A stretch of DNA of 64,000 nt from NCBI GenBank assembly GCA_024635795.1, contig JAGXIH010000003.1, positions 1 to 64,000 on the forward strand, in the 5' to 3' direction. The notes under the pieces were generated by a model, which saw only the letters and a list, made by a program, of their open reading frames with translations, was not told the DNA's origin and made no database searches. The stretch is from Salegentibacter sp. (GTDB lineage Bacteria > Bacteroidota > Bacteroidia > Flavobacteriales > Flavobacteriaceae). Within the stretch, counting starts at the first letter, position 1. Every line of letters begins with the position of its first letter. A program made the translations under genes and the position numbers. Positions 56,842 through 62,810 of this stretch are shown in pieces.

Positions 56842-57471
56842 TTAGGCGTGTAAACCACATTCGCGGTTAGACAAGACTTTGGTAGGATCGAAGTATTTGA
56901 ATTCATTGGGTAAAGTATTTTCCTCCAGGTACGCATCCAGTTGCTCATCGCTCCAATAGTAAAATGGACTCACCTTTAATTTTCCATCTTTGCTGTAACT
57001 TAATACTCCAATACTATCGCGAAAAGCCGTTTGGCCCTTTCTCAAATTAGTAAACCAAAGATCAGGTTTTTGTTGCTCCATGGCCCGCTGAAAAGGTTCC
57101 AGCTTTACCTGCCTGGTAAATTCTTCATGTTGCGAAGAATTCACTTCCGGAATTCCGCCAAAAAGGGCGTCCCGGTAGGCTGCGGTTTGTTTTGGAGTAT
57201 AGAGCTTTACATTCAATTCCAACTGATCAATTACCTGAGTGGCGTGCTTGTAGGTTTGAGGAGTATTATAACCGGTATCGCACCATATCACTTTAATTTC
57301 GGGCTCTATCTTAGAAACTGCGTGTAGAATAGCCGCTTCAAAAGGCCGAAAATTTGTAGTAACCACAGGCCTTTCGGCATTGGAGACAGCCCACCGAATG
57401 ATTTCTGCCGGACTTGCTTCTCTGAACTGCTCATTGAGTTCTTTCAATTCGTTTTCACTAAGCTTTATCAT
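56842..57471 (-). CDS. cysH: Phosphoadenosine phosphosulfate reductase-type protein
   Basis: 209 residues of the CysH/PAPS reductase family. PVVTTNFRPFEAAILHAV is the degenerate PP-motif and VIWCDTGYNTPQTYKH and FFTNLRKGQTAFRD-type segments follow; the catalytic cysteine is in the tail ECGLHA (C205). Only two cysteines exist (C64, C205), so the paired CC and CxxC that hold the 4Fe-4S cluster of APS reductases are missing, pointing to PAPS as substrate. Yet no APS kinase is seen in the operon. The start at 57471 lies just after the DUF2061 stop (TAATATG); an ATG 15 bases upstream overlaps it. Confidence 0.88.
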   Translation of the reverse strand: MIKLSENELKELNEQFREASPAEIIRWAVSNAERPVVTTNFRPFEAAILHAVSKIEPEIKVIWCDTGYNTPQTYKHATQVIDQLELNVKLYTPKQTAAYRDALFGGIPEVNSSQHEEFTRQVKLEPFQRAMEQQKPDLWFTNLRKGQTAFRDSIGVLSYSKDGKLKVSPFYYWSDEQLDAYLEENTLPNEFKYFDPTKVLSNRECGLHA

Positions 57472-57472
57472 A

Positions 57473-57730
57473 TTATTCTTTTCCAAAGTTTATGGCATTC
57501 CAAAGTCTCTCATGCCCAAAATACAGAACCATTTTAGTAACCAGCTCCACCGAACCAATAGCAAGAGCCGTTTCTACTTTTCCGGTTAACACCCAACTTA
57601 TGGCAATAGTATCTAAAGTGCCAATGGTTCTCCAACTTATAGCTTTTAGAATACTACGGATCGGCTTCTCGCCGGCACGGTCGTCATTAAAGTTTTTTTG
57701 AGCCCGTCGCGGATTTAGTAACATAGGCAA
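57473..57730 (-). CDS. DUF2061 membrane protein
   Basis: 85 residues. DUF2061 signature: PIRSILKAISWRTIGTLDTI then SWVLTGKVETALAIGSVELV and FGHERLWN. Two hydrophobic segments imply an inner-membrane protein. DUF2061 genes often sit in sulfate-assimilation operons, and a role in sulfate uptake or transfer is suspected but unproven. It is the first gene of the cys operon, preceded by a good promoter and a candidate Rrf2 operator. Confidence 0.85.
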   Translation of the reverse strand: MPMLLNPRRAQKNFNDDRAGEKPIRSILKAISWRTIGTLDTIAISWVLTGKVETALAIGSVELVTKMVLYFGHERLWNAINFGKE

Positions 57731-57750
57731 TAGAACTTCTATTTAATTAT

Positions 57751-57773
57751 TAACCTATAGGGTTGGTAGGTTA
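57751..57773. promoter_or_regulatory. Candidate Rrf2 operator at the cys promoter
   Basis: A perfect 7-base inverted repeat, TAACCTA (57751-57757) and TAGGTTA (57767-57773), is spaced by nine bases. It begins seven bases after the -7 box on the minus strand and so covers the expected transcription start. Rrf2 dimers bind short dyads of this layout, and an Rrf2 gene ends 55 bases away. Confidence 0.6.
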
Positions 57774-57779
57774 TTAAAA

Positions 57780-57811
57780 CAAAAATAAACTTAAAGCTGC
57801 GGTTATGCCAA
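57780..57811 (-). promoter_or_regulatory. Promoter of the cys operon
   Basis: On the minus strand TTG (57809-57811), 21 bases, TATTTTTG (57780-57787): a full match to the Bacteroidota form. The start would be near 57773, at the edge of the inverted repeat. Confidence 0.75.
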
Positions 57812-57827
57812 TTAATTCATAATTAAT

Positions 57828-58262
57828 TTAATCAGGTTGAACTTTTTTCTTCACCCTGGCCAAATCGGAAAGTGTATTCCCGCCTAAAACATTCAGGGTG
57901 CTATCCCTAACCTGTATCATCAGGGCGTGAACCGAGCAGGTTGCTTCATCGGGACAGTCGTTGCATTTTTCGTAATAATTCAGGCTAACACAGGGAACCA
58001 TAGCTATGGGGCCCTCGAGCACCCGAACTACAGAGGTCATTTTGATCTTCTCAGGTTCCTGAATGAGATAATAACCGCCACCCTTACCTTTTTTCGAGCC
58101 CAGAAAGCCAGATTTCCGTAGACTTAGCAAAATGCTTTCCAGAAACTTCAAAGAGATATTCTCACTTTTAGCGATTTCTGAAGTTTGCACAGGTTTTTTA
58201 TCCTCGCGTGAAGCGATAAAGGCCAGCGCCTTGATCCCATACTTGGTCTTTTTTGAAAGCAT
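57828..58262 (-). CDS. Rrf2-family transcriptional regulator
   Basis: 144 residues. Winged helix with MLSKKTKYGIKALAFIASRE, SEIAKSENISLKFLESILLSLRKSGFLGSKKGKGGGYYL (recognition helix and wing), then a helix and three conserved cysteines in PCVSLNYYEKCNDCPDEATC, arranged like the Fe-S or redox site of IscR/CymR relatives. Placed just upstream of the cys operon and with the candidate operator in the gap, it is a likely regulator of sulfate assimilation, sensing cysteine status or Fe-S cluster. It follows hom by 67 bases on the same strand. Confidence 0.9.
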   Translation of the reverse strand: MLSKKTKYGIKALAFIASREDKKPVQTSEIAKSENISLKFLESILLSLRKSGFLGSKKGKGGGYYLIQEPEKIKMTSVVRVLEGPIAMVPCVSLNYYEKCNDCPDEATCSVHALMIQVRDSTLNVLGGNTLSDLARVKKKVQPD

Positions 58263-58329: not shown

Positions 58330-59403
58330 TTAATTAATCCTATTTACTAATTTCAGAACATCACATACCACACCCCTTGCGGTCACTGCTGCACCGGCGC
58401 CTGCCCCCTGGATCACCAAAGGTTGATCACCGTAAGATTCAGTGTAAATCTCGAAAATATTATCGGCTTCTTTTATCTGTCCTAGTGCACTCTCCTTAGG
58501 TACCGAAATAAGTTTGGCCTCCAGGCTGCCCCTCCCTACTTTAAGCTCGCCCACATAACGTAACACGTGATTCTTCTTTTGATTTTTCTTTCGTTTTTCG
58601 AAGATCTCATCCAGTTCTGAAATTCTATTCTGAAAATCTTCTTCGGAAGTCTTACCGTTGAGTTTCTCAGGAATCAGCGACTGAATTTTCACTTCTTTAA
58701 ACTCCTTTTTCAGCTGAAGTTCTCTCGCCAAAATCAATAGTTTTCGCCCCACATCATTTCCCGAGAGATCCTCGCGTGCATCAGGTTCCGTATAGCCCAA
58801 CTCCCCGGCTTTTTTCAGCACTCCTGAAAACCCTGATTCAGAATCAGAAAAGCTGTTGAAAATAAAGCTAAGGGAACCTGAGAAAACTCCTCTTATCTTT
58901 GTTACCTTCTCACCGGCCTGATGCAGTCCCTTTACCGTTTGCACTATAGGCAGCCCGGCACCAACATTGGTTTCGTAGTAAAAATGCTTTTTGTGTTTTC
59001 CCAACTCCCTTCTTAGTCCATAATAAAATTCATCGGAAAGCGTGTTAGCCACCTTATTGGCAGCAACCAGATGAAAGCCGGTTTGCACAAGTTTGGGATA
59101 TGCCTGCACAAGGTCTTTACTGGCCGTGGCATCTACCACAACAGGGTTTTCAAGTTGATGTTTTCGGCTGAATTCCAAAATATCTTCCAAATTATAAGCC
59201 TGTGCATTTTTTTCAAAATCCTCCTTCCAGTTTTCATCTATCCCTTCCGGCTTAAAAAGCGCTTTTTTCGAATTCGCAATAACGGCGATGTTTACAGCTA
59301 TTTCAGATTCTTTTTGCCAGTTGGTTTTAGTTTTAAGAAGTTGATCAATAAGAGTACTACCTACATTACCTACCCCAAATAAAATGATGTTCACTTTTTT
59401 CAT
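58330..59403 (-). CDS. hom: Homoserine dehydrogenase
   Basis: 357 residues. It reduces aspartate semialdehyde to homoserine. NAD(P)-site KVNIILFGVGNVGSTLIDQL, then VVDATASKDLVQAYPKLVQT, the substrate part VAANKVANTL and TNVGAGLPIVQTVKGL, GVFSGSLSFIFNSFSDSES and GYTEPDAREDLSGNDVGRKLLILARE. It has no aspartokinase or ACT domain, so it is a stand-alone dehydrogenase devoted to the methionine branch. It follows metX by about 120 bases in the met operon. Confidence 0.94.
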   Translation of the reverse strand: MKKVNIILFGVGNVGSTLIDQLLKTKTNWQKESEIAVNIAVIANSKKALFKPEGIDENWKEDFEKNAQAYNLEDILEFSRKHQLENPVVVDATASKDLVQAYPKLVQTGFHLVAANKVANTLSDEFYYGLRRELGKHKKHFYYETNVGAGLPIVQTVKGLHQAGEKVTKIRGVFSGSLSFIFNSFSDSESGFSGVLKKAGELGYTEPDAREDLSGNDVGRKLLILARELQLKKEFKEVKIQSLIPEKLNGKTSEEDFQNRISELDEIFEKRKKNQKKNHVLRYVGELKVGRGSLEAKLISVPKESALGQIKEADNIFEIYTESYGDQPLVIQGAGAGAAVTARGVVCDVLKLVNRIN

Positions 59404-59523: not shown

Positions 59524-60585
59524 TTACTCAAATTGGAAATTTTGCTCAGACTTATAATCATATTCCTGATTTTTGTCATTTTTTAGGTCCAGCAGCGTGC
59601 TGGTTTCATTTTTAATTTTGTTGGTTTTAAAAACAGGTTCTAAAAATCGAACGAGTTGAGAGGCTTCGATAAGAAAAGCGTCATGCCCGTGTATGGATTT
59701 GATTTCGTTTATACTCACGTTAGGTTTGGCCAGAGACAGATCTACATAGGTTTCCCAGTTTTCATCGGCCAGGAAAAACCAGTCTGAATTCACCGTAATA
59801 ATGTGGATATGGCCCTTAATTTTTTTTGCGGCTTCGAGGTAATTCCCGCTTCCATTGCTAATATCTATGGTGGTAAGCAGGTGATTCATCAATTTGTACG
59901 AAGCCAGCTGAAAGCGCTCCTCTAGTTTGTCGCCGTGGTATTGTAACCAGCCTTCCACCTTGTAGCAAGATTGAACTTCTTCCCGCGAGCGGTTAAATTT
60001 TCTGGCGAGCGATTGCGGGGTTCGGTAAAAGGTCATCGCGTGCATCCGGGCATCCTTTACCGGACTGCTGGAATTATTTAAAATTTGCTCCTGCACCTTG
60101 CAGTTTGCCAGCACCCAGTCGGTCGCTTTATAATCGGTCGCGATAGGAATAATGTTTTCGGCAAGCTCGGGCTGTAAAGCTGCCAGTTCCCAGGCCAGAG
60201 CGCCGCCAATAGAGCCACCAACTATGGCAAAAAGCTTTGTGATTTCCAGCTCTTCCAGGGCGAGCGCCTGTATGCGGGCGATATCTTTTAAACTAAAATC
60301 TTTATAGTTTTCTATCAGATCCTCTTTTTTTCCGCTGAAACCGTTTCCCGGAATATTGAAAGCCAGTACCGCATATTGGTTGGTATCTATAGTTCTTCCC
60401 GGGCCTACAATCCCGCTCCACCAGCCATTTTCACCGGTGATCTGGGAATTTCCGGTTAGGGCATGGTTTATCAGCACTACCGCGGCCAAATCAACAGGCT
60501 GCCCGAATTGCTGAAAACTAAGATGAATATCCTGAATCCCGCCGGCAGAATTTTTAAAGTTTTTTATATAGATCTCCTGAAGCAT
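59524..60585 (-). CDS. metX: Homoserine O-acetyltransferase (MetX type)
   Basis: 353 residues of the alpha/beta-hydrolase acyltransferase family. VVLINHALTGNSQ (the oxyanion part), GWWSGIVGPGRTIDTNQY, the catalytic serine in VGGSIGGALAWELAALQPEL, RMHAMTFYRTPQSLARKF, NSDWFF with the catalytic Asp, and the His in SIHGHDAFLIEASQL. It makes O-acetylhomoserine (or succinyl in some members) for direct sulfhydrylation by MetY upstream. The C-terminal tail is charged and about 20 residues long. An 81-base gap separates it from metY. Confidence 0.92.
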   Translation of the reverse strand: MLQEIYIKNFKNSAGGIQDIHLSFQQFGQPVDLAAVVLINHALTGNSQITGENGWWSGIVGPGRTIDTNQYAVLAFNIPGNGFSGKKEDLIENYKDFSLKDIARIQALALEELEITKLFAIVGGSIGGALAWELAALQPELAENIIPIATDYKATDWVLANCKVQEQILNNSSSPVKDARMHAMTFYRTPQSLARKFNRSREEVQSCYKVEGWLQYHGDKLEERFQLASYKLMNHLLTTIDISNGSGNYLEAAKKIKGHIHIITVNSDWFFLADENWETYVDLSLAKPNVSINEIKSIHGHDAFLIEASQLVRFLEPVFKTNKIKNETSTLLDLKNDKNQEYDYKSEQNFQFE

Positions 60586-60666: not shown

Positions 60667-61959
60667 TTATACCAATGCTTTTTTCCCTATTTTAGAAAAT
60701 GCTTCTTTTAGGTCGTTTTTCAGGTCTTCCACATCTTCCAGCCCAACTGAAAGCCGTATAAGATCTTTAGTAACTCCTGTTGTCGCTTGTTGTTCTTCAC
60801 TGAGCTGTTGATGTGTAGTGCTGGCAGGATGAATAATCAGGGATTTCGTATCACCAATATTGGCCACCAAAGAAAAGAGCTTGGTCTCATCAGCTACTAT
60901 TTTGGCCGATTCGTAGCCACCATCAACCCCAAAGGTCACTACCCCGCTTTGTCCCTTCGGAAGATATTGCTTGGCCAGCTTGTAATATTCACTGCTTTCC
61001 AGTCCGGGATAATTCACCCACTTTACTTCCGGTTGCTCCTGAAGCCATTTTGCCAGTTCCAGTGCGTTTTCACTATGCTGCTTGATGCGTATCTCCAGGG
61101 TTTCCAAGCCTTGAATGATCTGGAAAGCATTAAACGGACTCAAAGCCGCGCCGTGATCTCTCAATCCTTCAATACGTACTTTAGCGATAAAGGCAGCTTC
61201 CTTAAGCGCCTCGTGGTAAACCAGGCCGTGATAACCCGGAGAAGGCTCGGTAAATTCGGGAAACTTCCCGTTTGCCCAGTCAAATCTTCCGGCATCGATT
61301 ATCGCGCCGCCCAGGGCGGTTCCATTTCCGTTGATGTATTTTGTTAGGGATTCGATCACGATATCGGCGCCGTGCTCTATGGGTTTCAGAAGTGATGGGG
61401 TTGCCACGGTATTATCGACGATAAAAGGAACTTTAAATTTTTTAGCTTCCGCAGAGATCGCTTTAAGATCAAGTACGTCCAGCTTTGGATTACCCAGGGA
61501 CTCCACAAAGAACACCCGGGTATTTTCTTTGGCCACTTTGCTGAAATTTTCCGGATTGCCGGGGTCCACAAAGGTGGTGGTAATTCCAAAACGGGGCAGA
61601 GTCACATTCAGCAGGTTATAGGTCCCACCATACAAACTGTTGGAGGCCACGATATGATCCCCGGCTTTCAGCAGAGTTAACAATGTGGTATTTATTGCCG
61701 CCGTTCCTGAAGCGGTTACCACTGCTGCGATTCCACCTTCCAGCGCGGCAAGTCGCTGTTCAAGAATATCATTGGTGGGATTATTAATTCGGGTGTAAAT
61801 GAATCCCGGCTCGGCCAGGGAAAAAAGATCAGCGGCGTGTTGGGAGTTCTTAAATACGTAGGAAGTAGATTGATAAAGCGGCACTGCTCTGGTTCCGGCG
61901 CTGGTTGTTACATCGTGTCCTGCGTGAAGGGCGTTGGTTGAAAATTTTTGAGTACTCAT
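60667..61959 (-). CDS. metY: O-acetylhomoserine sulfhydrylase (MetY type)
   Basis: 430 residues of the Cys/Met-metabolism PLP family (fold type I). TRAVPLYQSTSYVFKNSQHAADLF, the YTRINNPTNDILEQRLAALEGG stretch, VFFVESLGNPKLDVLDLKAI, VDNTVATPSLLKPIEHGADIVIESLTKYINGNGTALGG (PLP lysine in SLTKY) and NIGDTKSLIIHPASTTHQQLS. It makes homocysteine from O-acetylhomoserine and sulfide, consuming sulfide from the cys pathway. As first structural gene of the met operon it is preceded by two methionine-rich leader peptides with terminators. Confidence 0.93.
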   Translation of the reverse strand: MSTQKFSTNALHAGHDVTTSAGTRAVPLYQSTSYVFKNSQHAADLFSLAEPGFIYTRINNPTNDILEQRLAALEGGIAAVVTASGTAAINTTLLTLLKAGDHIVASNSLYGGTYNLLNVTLPRFGITTTFVDPGNPENFSKVAKENTRVFFVESLGNPKLDVLDLKAISAEAKKFKVPFIVDNTVATPSLLKPIEHGADIVIESLTKYINGNGTALGGAIIDAGRFDWANGKFPEFTEPSPGYHGLVYHEALKEAAFIAKVRIEGLRDHGAALSPFNAFQIIQGLETLEIRIKQHSENALELAKWLQEQPEVKWVNYPGLESSEYYKLAKQYLPKGQSGVVTFGVDGGYESAKIVADETKLFSLVANIGDTKSLIIHPASTTHQQLSEEQQATTGVTKDLIRLSVGLEDVEDLKNDLKEAFSKIGKKALV

Positions 61960-62018
61960 GATATTAGTTTTTTAAAGTTTGATTTCTGTTTAAGATGCCC
62001 GTCCTTTGATAAGGATTC

Positions 62019-62034
62019 CCGCCTTCGCGGGAAT
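62019..62034. repeat. REP-like palindrome (cccgccttcgcggg)
   Basis: ttcccgccttcgcgggaa: arms of eight bases around a two-base loop. The same element recurs at 62219-62235 in reversed orientation, and related tttccgtcttcacggaaa copies lie at 62280 and 62315. Confidence 0.75.
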
Positions 62035-62047
62035 TTATGCCAGGCAT

Positions 62048-62083
62048 AAAAAAATCCCCCTGGTTTCGCTATTACCAGGGGGA
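62048..62083 (-). terminator. Attenuator terminator B before metY
   Basis: Perfect 10-bp stem tccccctggt (62055-62064) with accaggggga (62074-62083), loop ttcgctatt; an A-run at 62048-62054 gives the U-tract on the minus strand. It lies between leader B and metY. Its 5' arm and loop (minus strand CTGGTAATAG, 62069-62078) are also complementary to leader B codons. Confidence 0.88.
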
Positions 62084-62110
62084 CTTGAATTGAACTCTAA
62101 ATAAACTAAG

Positions 62111-62203
62111 TTACATTCGCTTCTGGCAATAGCATTTCATGTGCATACACATCATCATAATGGGCATTATCATTTTTTTTGCTATTGACAGGTTGTTACT
62201 CAT
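62111..62203 (-). CDS. Methionine-rich leader peptide B of the met operon
   Basis: 30 codons on the minus strand, from MSNNLSIAKK onward, with Met at 1, 11, 13, 16, 17, 18, 20, 22 and 30 (nine of 30) and Cys at 19, 24 and 26. It ends with TAA at 62111. Two conflicting helices flank it: CAATAGCA (62180-62187) with TGCTATTG (62127-62134), 8 bp; and CTATTGCCAG (62123-62132) with CTGGTAATAG (62069-62078) of the terminator, 10 bp with one wobble. A stalled ribosome would decide which forms. This is the classical layout for amino-acid attenuation, here for methionine. Confidence 0.82.
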   Translation of the reverse strand: MSNNLSIAKKMIMPIMMMCMHMKCYCQKRM

Positions 62204-62218
62204 TCTTTCTTTTTTATG

Positions 62219-62335
62219 TTCCCGCGAAGGCGGGAATCTTTACTCTTTTTTATTCTTCTTTATTCTTCTCCTTTTAGATTTCCGTCTTCACGGAAATGAC
62301 TTTTTGTTTTTTTGATTTCCGTCTTCACGGAAAAG
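62219..62335. repeat. Three REP-like palindromes between the two met attenuators
   Basis: Elements ttcccgcgaaggcgggaa (62219-62236), then two copies of tttccgtcttcacggaaa (about 62280-62297 and 62317-62334). AT-rich ctttattcttctt-type simple sequence lies between the first and second. They part leader A and its terminator from leader B. Confidence 0.75.
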
Positions 62336-62349
62336 ACAAATTATTATAT

Positions 62350-62380
62350 AAAAAAAGCCGCTACGGTGGCAGCGGCTTTT
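62350..62380 (-). terminator. Attenuator terminator A before metY
   Basis: A 10-bp stem aaaagccgct (62353-62362) with agcggctttt (62371-62380), loop acggtggc, with an A-run (62350-62356). It follows leader A by 18 bases. GCAGCG in the leader (62414-62419) and CGCTGC in the terminator arm (62369-62374) can pair instead. Confidence 0.85.
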
Positions 62381-62398
62381 GCAAATATCTTTTCAGTT

Positions 62399-62470
62399 TT
62401 ATGCAATAGTGCGCGCTGCGGAGGCTTTCCACATCATCATACGCATCATATTGCAAATAAACTTGTACAT
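62399..62470 (-). CDS. Methionine-rich leader peptide A of the met operon
   Basis: 23 codons on the minus strand: starts MYKFICN, then MMRMMMW and KASAARTIA, TAA at 62399. Six Met codons (1, 8, 9, 11, 12, 13), five of them packed within six residues. The 5' part TGCAATA (62449-62455) can pair with TATTGCA (62402-62408) over the Met codons, while GCAGCG (62414-62419) can pair with CGCTGC of terminator A, so two exclusive states exist. Its start codon follows a full promoter at 62490-62521 by 19 bases. Function as a methionine-sensing leader is inferred from composition, position and pairing. Confidence 0.82.
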   Translation of the reverse strand: MYKFICNMMRMMMWKASAARTIA

Positions 62471-62489
62471 TTCGTTGTTTTGTTGGCTA

Positions 62490-62521
62490 CAAAGATAAGG
62501 GCACATTCTTTTAATATCCAA
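62490..62521 (-). promoter_or_regulatory. Promoter of the met operon
   Basis: On the minus strand TTG (62519-62521), 21 bases, TATCTTTG (62490-62497): a perfect Bacteroidota match. The start near 62483 lies before leader A, so both leaders would be in the same transcript. Confidence 0.8.
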
Positions 62522-62671
62522 GCAGAATACTAATTTTTACGAAATATTTATTTTAAGCGAAATAAACTCTGTTTTTCAGAAAATAAACATAGCTTTCCTT
62601 AAATTATTTCAGAATTGAGCAGTAAACTCCCGGCGGGATAGATTTCAGAATTAAACTTTGAAAAAGAAATA

Positions 62672-62699: not shown

Positions 62700-62713
62700 T
62701 CACCGTATAATTT

Positions 62714-62810
62714 AAAGGGAAGGATTTGACTGATTGCAACCCTATATGCACTTAGGTGTATTGAAAAATGCTAAAGCAGTAATACTACTCCTGTTAGCAC
62801 CACGTCAAAT
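62714..62810 (+). ncRNA. SAM-II-like riboswitch upstream of metK
   Basis: The core GATTTGACTGATTGCAA (62723-62739) closely follows the SAM-II core as I recall it (GAUUUaACcGuAUUGCAA), and AAATGCTAAAGC downstream (62766-62777) matches its GCUAAA strand. A P1-like AGGG/CCCT (62716-62719 with 62740-62743) and the TTTG-AC to G-CTAAA pseudoknot (including the U.A, G.U change) can be drawn. A side hairpin ATGCAC/GTGTAT (62746-62751, 62756-62761) sits in the long loop. Downstream, ATTTGAC (62724-62730) pairs with GTCAAAT (62804-62810) and TGCTAA (62769-62774) with TTAGCA (62794-62799): both would break the pseudoknot, so they could be the alternative fold. Next to metK the ligand would be SAM. Confidence 0.7.

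Follow-up and report, generated by a model that had tools for sequence, protein, structure and literature searches.

The window, by which we mean the whole 64,000-nucleotide stretch of DNA analyzed here from Salegentibacter, a marine flavobacterium, carries metY on its minus strand, preceded by two short, methionine-rich open reading frames (ORFs) that we call leader A and leader B. Each is followed by an intrinsic terminator that lies between the ORF and the structural gene. The window comes from a genome assembly that is 62% complete; the closest named relative of its metY, among the best 80 of 379 relatives, is that of Salegentibacter sediminis (94%). The features are as follows.

62490..62521, minus strand: promoter-like sequence (TTGG...TATCTTTG), a motif match that precedes leader A
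62399..62470, minus strand: leader A ORF, MYKFICNMMRMMMWKASAARTIA, with relatives in 40 aligned loci
62450..62455, minus strand: leader A helix 1:2, 5' half (TGCAAT), judged by alignment counts and an energy test
62402..62407, minus strand: leader A helix 1:2, 3' half (ATTGCA), judged by alignment counts and an energy test
62414..62419, minus strand: leader A segment 2 (GCAGCG), the putative antiterminator strand, which can pair with the terminator 5' arm
62353..62380, minus strand: terminator A (segments 3 and 4), followed by a T-run, with pairing examined in 40 sequences
62111..62203, minus strand: leader B ORF, MSNNLSIAKKMIMPIMMMCMHMKCYCQKRM; a search script finds leader B in 49 of 91 metY loci
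62180..62187, minus strand: leader B segment 1 (CAATAGCA), from 1:2 duplex energy
62123..62134, minus strand: leader B segment 2 (TGCTATTGCCAG), from 2:3 duplex energy
62068..62078, minus strand: leader B segment 3 (CTGGTAATAGC), the top of the terminator 5' arm plus the loop, from 2:3 pairing counts
62052..62086, minus strand: terminator B, AAGTCCCCCTGGTAATAGCGAAACCAGGGGGATTT (segments 3 and 4), with a T-run to about 62048, from the predicted fold
60667..61959, minus strand: metY, O-acetylhomoserine sulfhydrylase, the first gene past the leaders (PF01053; TIGR01326 above its curated cut-off)
59524..60585, minus strand: metX-like homoserine O-acetyltransferase (alpha/beta hydrolase; best NCBIfam match TIGR01392 MetX, below cut-off)
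58330..59403, minus strand: homoserine dehydrogenase (PF00742 and PF03447)
56842..58262, minus strand: Rrf2 regulator, DUF2061 protein, and PAPS-reductase-domain protein (PF02082, PF09834, and PF01507)
62710-62784, plus strand: SAM-II riboswitch (RF01726, 57.6 bits), upstream of the divergent metK

Gene order and strand suggest that the Rrf2, DUF2061, and PAPS-reductase-domain genes are also members of the metY operon. SAM riboswitches, T-boxes, and repressor proteins are textbook regulators of methionine genes. Since metK lies behind a SAM-II riboswitch, it appears to be under a different sensor from the divergent metY operon. At Rfam gathering thresholds, neither SAM-I (RF00162) nor SAM-II (RF01726) was found before metY in the window, the matches being to tRNA and to the SAM-II element before metK. 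A lax Rfam scan of positions 61950-62560 returned no SAM family; its top entries were Phe_leader and STnc430, all below gathering thresholds. No match to the Rfam T-box family was returned by the window scan or by the lax scan of the same region.

Short palindromic repeats (TTCCCGC/GCGGGAA and TTTCCGTCTTCACGGAAA types) lie on both sides of leader B, at 62015-62034, 62218-62237, 62278-62297, and 62316-62333, and similar repeats are found between the two leaders of other Salegentibacter. The spacer from the leader B stop codon to its terminator (62110-62087, minus strand; CTTAGTTT..AGAGTTCAATT) varies little within Salegentibacter and is partly conserved in neighbouring genera.

A preliminary description of this DNA had proposed that a 30-codon frame with nine Met codons before metY forms an attenuator with three competing helices, 1:2, 2:3, and 3:4. 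All of the segments that it named are present on the minus strand, where it had placed them. The Met codons of leader B are codons 1, 11, 13, 16-18, 20, 22, and 30; eight internal Met codons among 29 are far more than expected (P = 4e-7 for an assumed Met frequency of 2.5%). Segment 1 does lie before the Met cluster, as had been described, and all Met codons of leader B except the first and the last fall within the loop of helix 1:2. The 3:4 terminator and its U-run are likewise present, with a stem that had been given as 10 bp and is 13 bp in the predicted fold. The last codons of leader B in the window pair with the 5' arm and loop of this terminator, and the resulting 2:3 helix spans only the top 4 bp of the stem plus the loop. 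Leader B with its terminator folds at -46.0 kcal/mol, compared to -30.9 +/- 3.4 kcal/mol for 200 shuffled sequences, and the leader A region folds at -42.7 kcal/mol, compared to -29.8 +/- 3.4 kcal/mol; in neither case did any shuffle fold as well.

To compare loci, we took metY from the best 80 of 379 relatives (named genomes) and from 15 genomes of the genus and removed four loci taken as duplicates from the length of their contigs (L087, L090, L098, and L099, the contig of L090 differing by 100 bases from that of L015), leaving 91 distinct loci. A script searched up to 1.5 kb upstream of metY for an ORF with a Met cluster followed by a terminator. Met leaders with terminators were found in 52 of the 91 loci, leader A in 41, leader B in 49, and both in 38. 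The script misses leader B in L015 and L024, where the ORF and its terminator are visible by eye. The lone leader A of Flavobacterium fluvii (L037) is part of the counts of 41 and 52 and was kept out of alignment A1 and of the footprint, energy, coding, and promoter tests. Ten of the 11 loci with only leader B have a leader A 3.6 to 3.8 kb further upstream, before a TonB receptor gene; the eleventh (L022) is truncated where its contig begins and was excluded from alignment A2. A TonB-dependent receptor gene lies between leader A and the leader B-metY unit at L033:478-3324 and in nine other Flavobacterium loci.

As a background, the same loci were scanned over 1.52 Mb, the two strands being added together, excluding the plus-strand 1.5 kb before metY. 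Of 7121 small ORFs in this DNA, 128 contain a Met cluster, and 10 of these have a terminator behind them. Each of the 10 is a further copy of leader A, upstream of the TonB receptor gene in Flavobacterium. We therefore saw no evident false positives from these criteria.

The leaders have the properties of coding sequences. Internal ATG triplets are in frame 174 times and out of frame 0 times in leader A (39 distinct sequences), and in frame 350 times and out of frame 12 times in leader B (48 distinct sequences). Within the coding columns, gap lengths are divisible by three in 49 of 49 cases for leader A and 170 of 172 for leader B. Met accounts for 21% of residues in leader A and 25% in leader B. 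The clusters keep Met and Cys codons in varied arrangement, such as NMMRMMMW, NMMCMM, and NMCCMM, which points to codons rather than to a fixed nucleotide motif. We concluded that each leader is an ORF rich in codons for the end product of the pathway and predicted to be translated.

The attenuator had been described as one with Met codons. Their enrichment is clear, and the description needs correcting in that Cys codons are enriched too: Cys makes up 7% of residues in leader A and 14% in leader B, compared to a background of ~0.5%, which was taken, like that for Met, from long ORFs in six frames and is too low for real genes. The same attenuators could sense Met and Cys jointly, with ribosomes stalling at Cys codons as well and both pools being reported. 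We regard this as plausible, though somewhat less likely than not. It fits the Cys shares and the leaders before sulfate-assimilation genes, which carry both Met and Cys codons (L147, MIQIQKNMCCMCMCRNYTEAYYAL, and L177). However, leader A of the window has a single Cys codon, outside a pure Met/Arg cluster, and segment 2 of leader B takes in several of its Cys codons (CYCQ), which may serve pairing there.

We examined pairing by alignment counts, bearing in mind that the loci share ancestry, so that covariation cells, like the Fisher P value given below for the exchange with SAM-I, overstate independence. In the 40 aligned sequences with leader A, terminator A is paired in 100% of cells with 4 doubly changed pairs, helix 1:2 in 92.1% with 2 such pairs, and 2:3 in 99.6% with 8 cells changed on both sides; 34 of 500 shuffles match the number of doubly changed pairs in leader A 2:3. 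At one position, segments 2, 3, and 4 have changed jointly, from C-G-C to A-U-A, in six Flavobacterium sequences, and at a second they have changed from G-C-G to A-U-A in two Mesonia-type sequences. Such triple changes are explained by one nucleotide having to pair with two alternative partners, and they may represent few events. In the 47 leader B sequences, pairing of 2:3 holds in 85.1% of cells, compared to 84.1% after shuffling, with 4 doubly changed pairs, a number reached by 16 of 500 shuffles. The register of the terminator B stem differs between genera in alignment A2.

Because the paired share of leader B 2:3 is close to that of shuffled sequences, the energy test weighs more there. 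In 49 leaders, the mean 2:3 energy is -14.2 kcal/mol, compared to -7.5 kcal/mol after shuffling and -10.0 kcal/mol after shuffling of synonymous codons. The native 2:3 is better than the shuffled mean in 40 of 40 A leaders, 49 of 49 B leaders, and 77 of 78 held-out leaders, and better than synonymous-codon shuffles in 37 of 40, 46 of 49, and 75 of 78, respectively. The 78 held-out leaders are distinct sequences from later searches, made largely with models from the first set; many come from one genus, and they are not fully independent. Exchanging segment 3 between species weakens 2:3 modestly, from -13.4 to -11.4 (A) and from -14.3 to -12.9 (B). Helix 1:2 of leader B has a mean of -11.1 kcal/mol, compared to -5.9 kcal/mol after shuffling (49 leaders), while that of leader A, at -6.6 compared to -6.1, is hardly better than shuffled.

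Taken by helix, the covariation that would be expected of an attenuator is seen in 2:3 and the terminator of leader A and in the double changes of leader B 2:3; helix 1:2 is kept in leader B and unclear in leader A. Segments 2 and 3 thus appear to form an antiterminator, with compensatory changes, that would exclude the terminator. Met codons and complementary pairing are both kept in Salegentibacter, Gillisia, Christiangramia, Salinimicrobium, Mesonia, and Flavobacterium loci, and again in the 78 further leaders. The comparison of coding frame, Met clusters, terminators, and alternative 2:3 pairing supports the interpretation as an attenuator that had been made from the window alone.

Full-length equilibrium folds of the window's two leaders show the terminator at every ribosome position, as would plain terminators between transcription units that happen to follow Met-rich ORFs. 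We consider so trivial an origin extremely improbable, given that the leaders are conserved and covary and that the ten background matches all proved to be copies of leader A. Since the terminator always wins at equilibrium, the decision in an attenuator of this kind must instead be kinetic, made in the time that RNA polymerase takes to get from segment 3 to segment 4.

The motif TTk-N18-24-TAnnTTTG, which we take to be the Bacteroidota-type promoter motif, occurs no more than 130 nt upstream of 34 of 40 A leaders and 1 of 48 B leaders, compared to 2.3% of random windows. Four of the 34 matches before leader A are 47 to 48 nt from the ATG and may be due to chance; the others are 18 to 21 nt from it. 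Model matches to A and B lie 15 to 31 nt apart in six genomes (G030, G060, G017, G194, G109, and G124). The simplest reading of this arrangement is a single transcript that runs through both terminators. An attenuator downstream of a met promoter had been proposed; leader B fits the proposal as an attenuator, but it is the second of two in series, in the order A then B, and the promoter motif precedes only leader A. Single leaders also occur, with leader A alone before metY in L105, L110, and L112 and leader B alone before a metX-like gene in L123.

We conclude from these comparisons that two ribosome-mediated transcription attenuators very probably act in series ahead of metY. With ample Met-tRNA, the ribosome would reach the leader stop codon and cover segment 2, the 3:4 terminator would form, and RNA polymerase would stop. 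With scarce Met-tRNA, and perhaps Cys-tRNA, the ribosome would stall on the Met cluster, within the 1:2 loop, and keep helix 1:2 from closing; segment 2 would be free, 2:3 would form before segment 4 is made, and transcription would go on. RNA polymerase would have to pass both gates to get to metY. In leader B of the window, a ribosome stalled on Met codons in the 1:2 loop would sit between segments 1 and 2 and so leave segment 2 free. The spacing suggests that it acts as a wedge in this loop and that segment 1 of leader B would need no masking.

We modeled the ribosome footprint on transcripts that end before segment 4, assuming that it extends 12 nt past the A-site codon. With the ribosome at the best-placed Met codon, at least 5 pairs between segments 2 and 3 are predicted in 40 of 40 A leaders, 49 of 49 B leaders, and 78 of 78 held-out leaders. 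With the ribosome at the stop codon, the mean number of pairs is 1.7 (A), 2.7 (B), and 1.4 (held-out). In the model, then, segment 2 is freed by a stall at the best-placed Met codon and covered once the ribosome stands at the stop codon. There are leaders in which the final Met codon sits too near segment 2 (Met22 of leader B in the window gives 2.0 pairs), and there are leaders that hold pairs at the stop-codon position, as many as 7.6 in L036.

In the same model without a ribosome, a 2:3 helix of 5 or more pairs is predicted in 20 of 40 A leaders, 44 of 49 B leaders, and 54 of 78 held-out leaders. Helix 1:2 therefore does not clearly enforce termination as it does in trp, and equilibrium folding predicts that an unloaded leader B reads through, unlike the trp leader. 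Building on this prediction, a more speculative proposal, which we consider doubtful enough to offer only tentatively, is that Bacteroidota have a sulfur-amino-acid attenuation regulon whose serial leaders read the Met- and Cys-tRNA pools differently, leader A being a stall-dependent gate and leader B staying open when starvation stops initiation as well, methionine being the initiator too. If true, gates that differ in this way would overcome a difficulty that does not arise for trp-type attenuators and would account for two dissimilar leaders being kept in fixed order.

Ribosome-mediated attenuators of the trp, his, leu, and thr type are known from enterobacteria. The leaders described here resemble them in having a cluster of product codons in a short leader, competing 2:3 and 3:4 helices along with a 1:2 helix that is clear in leader B, and a terminator with a U-run. 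They differ in that the codons are for Met (with Cys), that two leaders stand in series, that the codon cluster of leader B follows segment 1 instead of lying within it, and that leader B 2:3 is predicted to form on ribosome-free RNA as well.

In line with the suspicion that such a system may be undescribed in Bacteroidota, a literature search, judged by titles, abstracts, and selected passages and covering few subscription papers and no supplements, turned up no leader-peptide attenuation of methionine genes for this phylum. In Flavobacterium psychrophilum, of the same family as Salegentibacter, "strong clues" for leader-peptide attenuation upstream of amino acid operons have been reported, with 5' elements of pheA and hisG conserved in other genera (PMC9723704); the word methionine is absent from the main text of that article, whose supplement may still list a met case. 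Long 5' UTRs with leader-peptide-like small ORFs, for example at BT_4401, are described for Bacteroides thetaiotaomicron, of the same phylum, with no methionine leader named in the portion of the article consulted (PMC7366714). A Met-containing leader peptide, metL, has been proposed before metNIQ in Streptomyces lividans; according to the sections consulted, it has no typical Rho-independent terminator, and phylum, gene, and sequence are different (PMC8079986). Two leader ORFs with attenuators in one leader are described, in the part of the article consulted, for Salmonella mgtCBR (PMC3641672); they answer different signals, ATP and proline, whereas both leaders here carry Met clusters. Control of met genes by 5' UTRs has been described in Proteobacteria (PMC6230763 and PMC4239095), and the term "leader peptide" is absent from both texts.

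Where the upstream DNA can be read, metY loci that lack leaders have a different sensor in their place. SAM-I was sought with R3, a model made from copies of this riboswitch. SAM-I lies immediately before metY in all 37 leaderless loci whose upstream sequence is readable and was not found before metY in any of the 52 loci with leaders, for which 4 kb of upstream DNA was scanned in 37, 2.7 kb in L031, 1.5 kb in 11, and less in L008, L022, and L027. Two loci, L025 (no match in 383 nt) and L039 (28 nt), were left out as uninformative. The exclusion would have a Fisher P value of 7e-26 if the loci were independent. Rfam's own SAM-I model confirms 16 of 16 leaderless loci scanned; since these 16 were part of the R3 seed, only the remaining 21 are independent of it. 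A quick metY tree (98 labelled rows) requires at least 4 changes of sensor, 2 of them forced by well-supported branches; their direction is not readable from it. The same gene in close relatives thus has either a SAM-I riboswitch or Met leaders. SAM-I (RF00162) occupies the same place before metY, but it binds SAM through an aptamer fold and not through a leader ORF.

Switching between sensing systems has been documented as a recurring theme in an article which, in the part consulted, gives leader-peptide systems as known only in Proteobacteria and Actinobacteria before its own Firmicutes case (PMC2965389). We interpret the tandem pair as part of a wider, predicted sulfur-amino-acid attenuation regulon of Flavobacteriia that alternates with SAM-I at metY. 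This exchange makes testable why methionine should be sensed by ribosome stalling though it starts every protein, and what is gained from two gates in series.

Two observations concern SAM riboswitches themselves. SAM-I and SAM-II occur together in 13 of 16 loci scanned (L026, L030, L032, L034, L035, L038, L042, L046, L049, L053, L058, L076, and L079); a 2007 survey, according to the part of its text consulted, had found no species with both classes (PMC2258182). In L106 (reverse-complemented, ~1501-1941), leader A and its terminator are followed by a SAM-I riboswitch and then by a metX-like ORF continuing into an amino-acid-kinase domain, an arrangement that places two different sensors in series within one leader.

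Strong model matches (E < 1e-6) were found for leader A in 17 and for leader B in 12 of 249 genomes of the family. R1 matches between 1e-6 and 1e-3, which account for 94 of the 111 genomes with a match, were not counted and may be mostly chance terminators. Two R2 matches (L127 and L128) were rejected for being without a Met leader. The leader A model also has matches in 55 of 81 genomes of genus g127 (E up to 1e-5), which is taken to be Flavobacterium from the similarity of its leader and metY. Outside the family, leader A was found in one genome (G285) of a 196-genome sample of the order, before PAPS-reductase-domain and GTPase genes, and leader B was found in one genome (G631) of a 247-genome sample of the class, as a tandem A and B before metY.

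Most of the downstream genes seen are Met or Cys genes, some of them named by BLAST to our own reference set. Directly downstream in the loci examined are metY, metX-like genes, an OsmC-like gene, and the TonB receptor gene. A methionine synthase gene follows a tandem A and B in L179; operons with serine-acetyltransferase-like, PLP-synthase, and sulfite-reductase genes follow leaders in L144, L148, and L183; and a sulfate-assimilation operon (L177) and Cys/Met PLP enzymes (L176) were found in the same position. The leaders thereby mark candidate target genes. Rfam scans at gathering thresholds returned no leader family for these leaders, so Rfam-based annotation would miss them.

Among the 25 genomes outside the family with a metY match, one locus (L202) has two Met/Cys leaders with terminators that are unrelated in sequence and similar in layout. 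L204 and L213, also outside the family, have Met/Cys-rich ORFs without a recognised terminator. SAM-I lies upstream in 12 of 19 metY loci scanned outside the family; one of these, L197, was counted as SAM-I only and also has a Met-rich ORF that no terminator follows. The layout in L202 bears on whether a trans-acting protein or small RNA, rather than the ribosome, could switch between 2:3 and 3:4, the short ORFs being incidental. The conservation of the stop-to-terminator sequence of leader B in Salegentibacter and its neighbours is what such a factor might produce. Leaders of other sequence with a similar layout in another family speak against it, and so do in-frame Met clusters, gaps in multiples of three, and pairing stronger than in synonymous shuffles; we judge a trans-acting factor to be very unlikely.

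In a g127 genome (L143:5343-6347, minus strand, the leader being seen in L130, minus strand), a Met/Cys-rich ORF (MKNNRQNNMNKMRNMMCCKHYLWNELA) and a terminator precede a gene for an EamA-family transporter. The presence of Met leaders before the TonB receptor and EamA transporter genes suggests sulfur-amino-acid roles for both and, for the TonB receptor, a sulfur-compound or methionine-related substrate.
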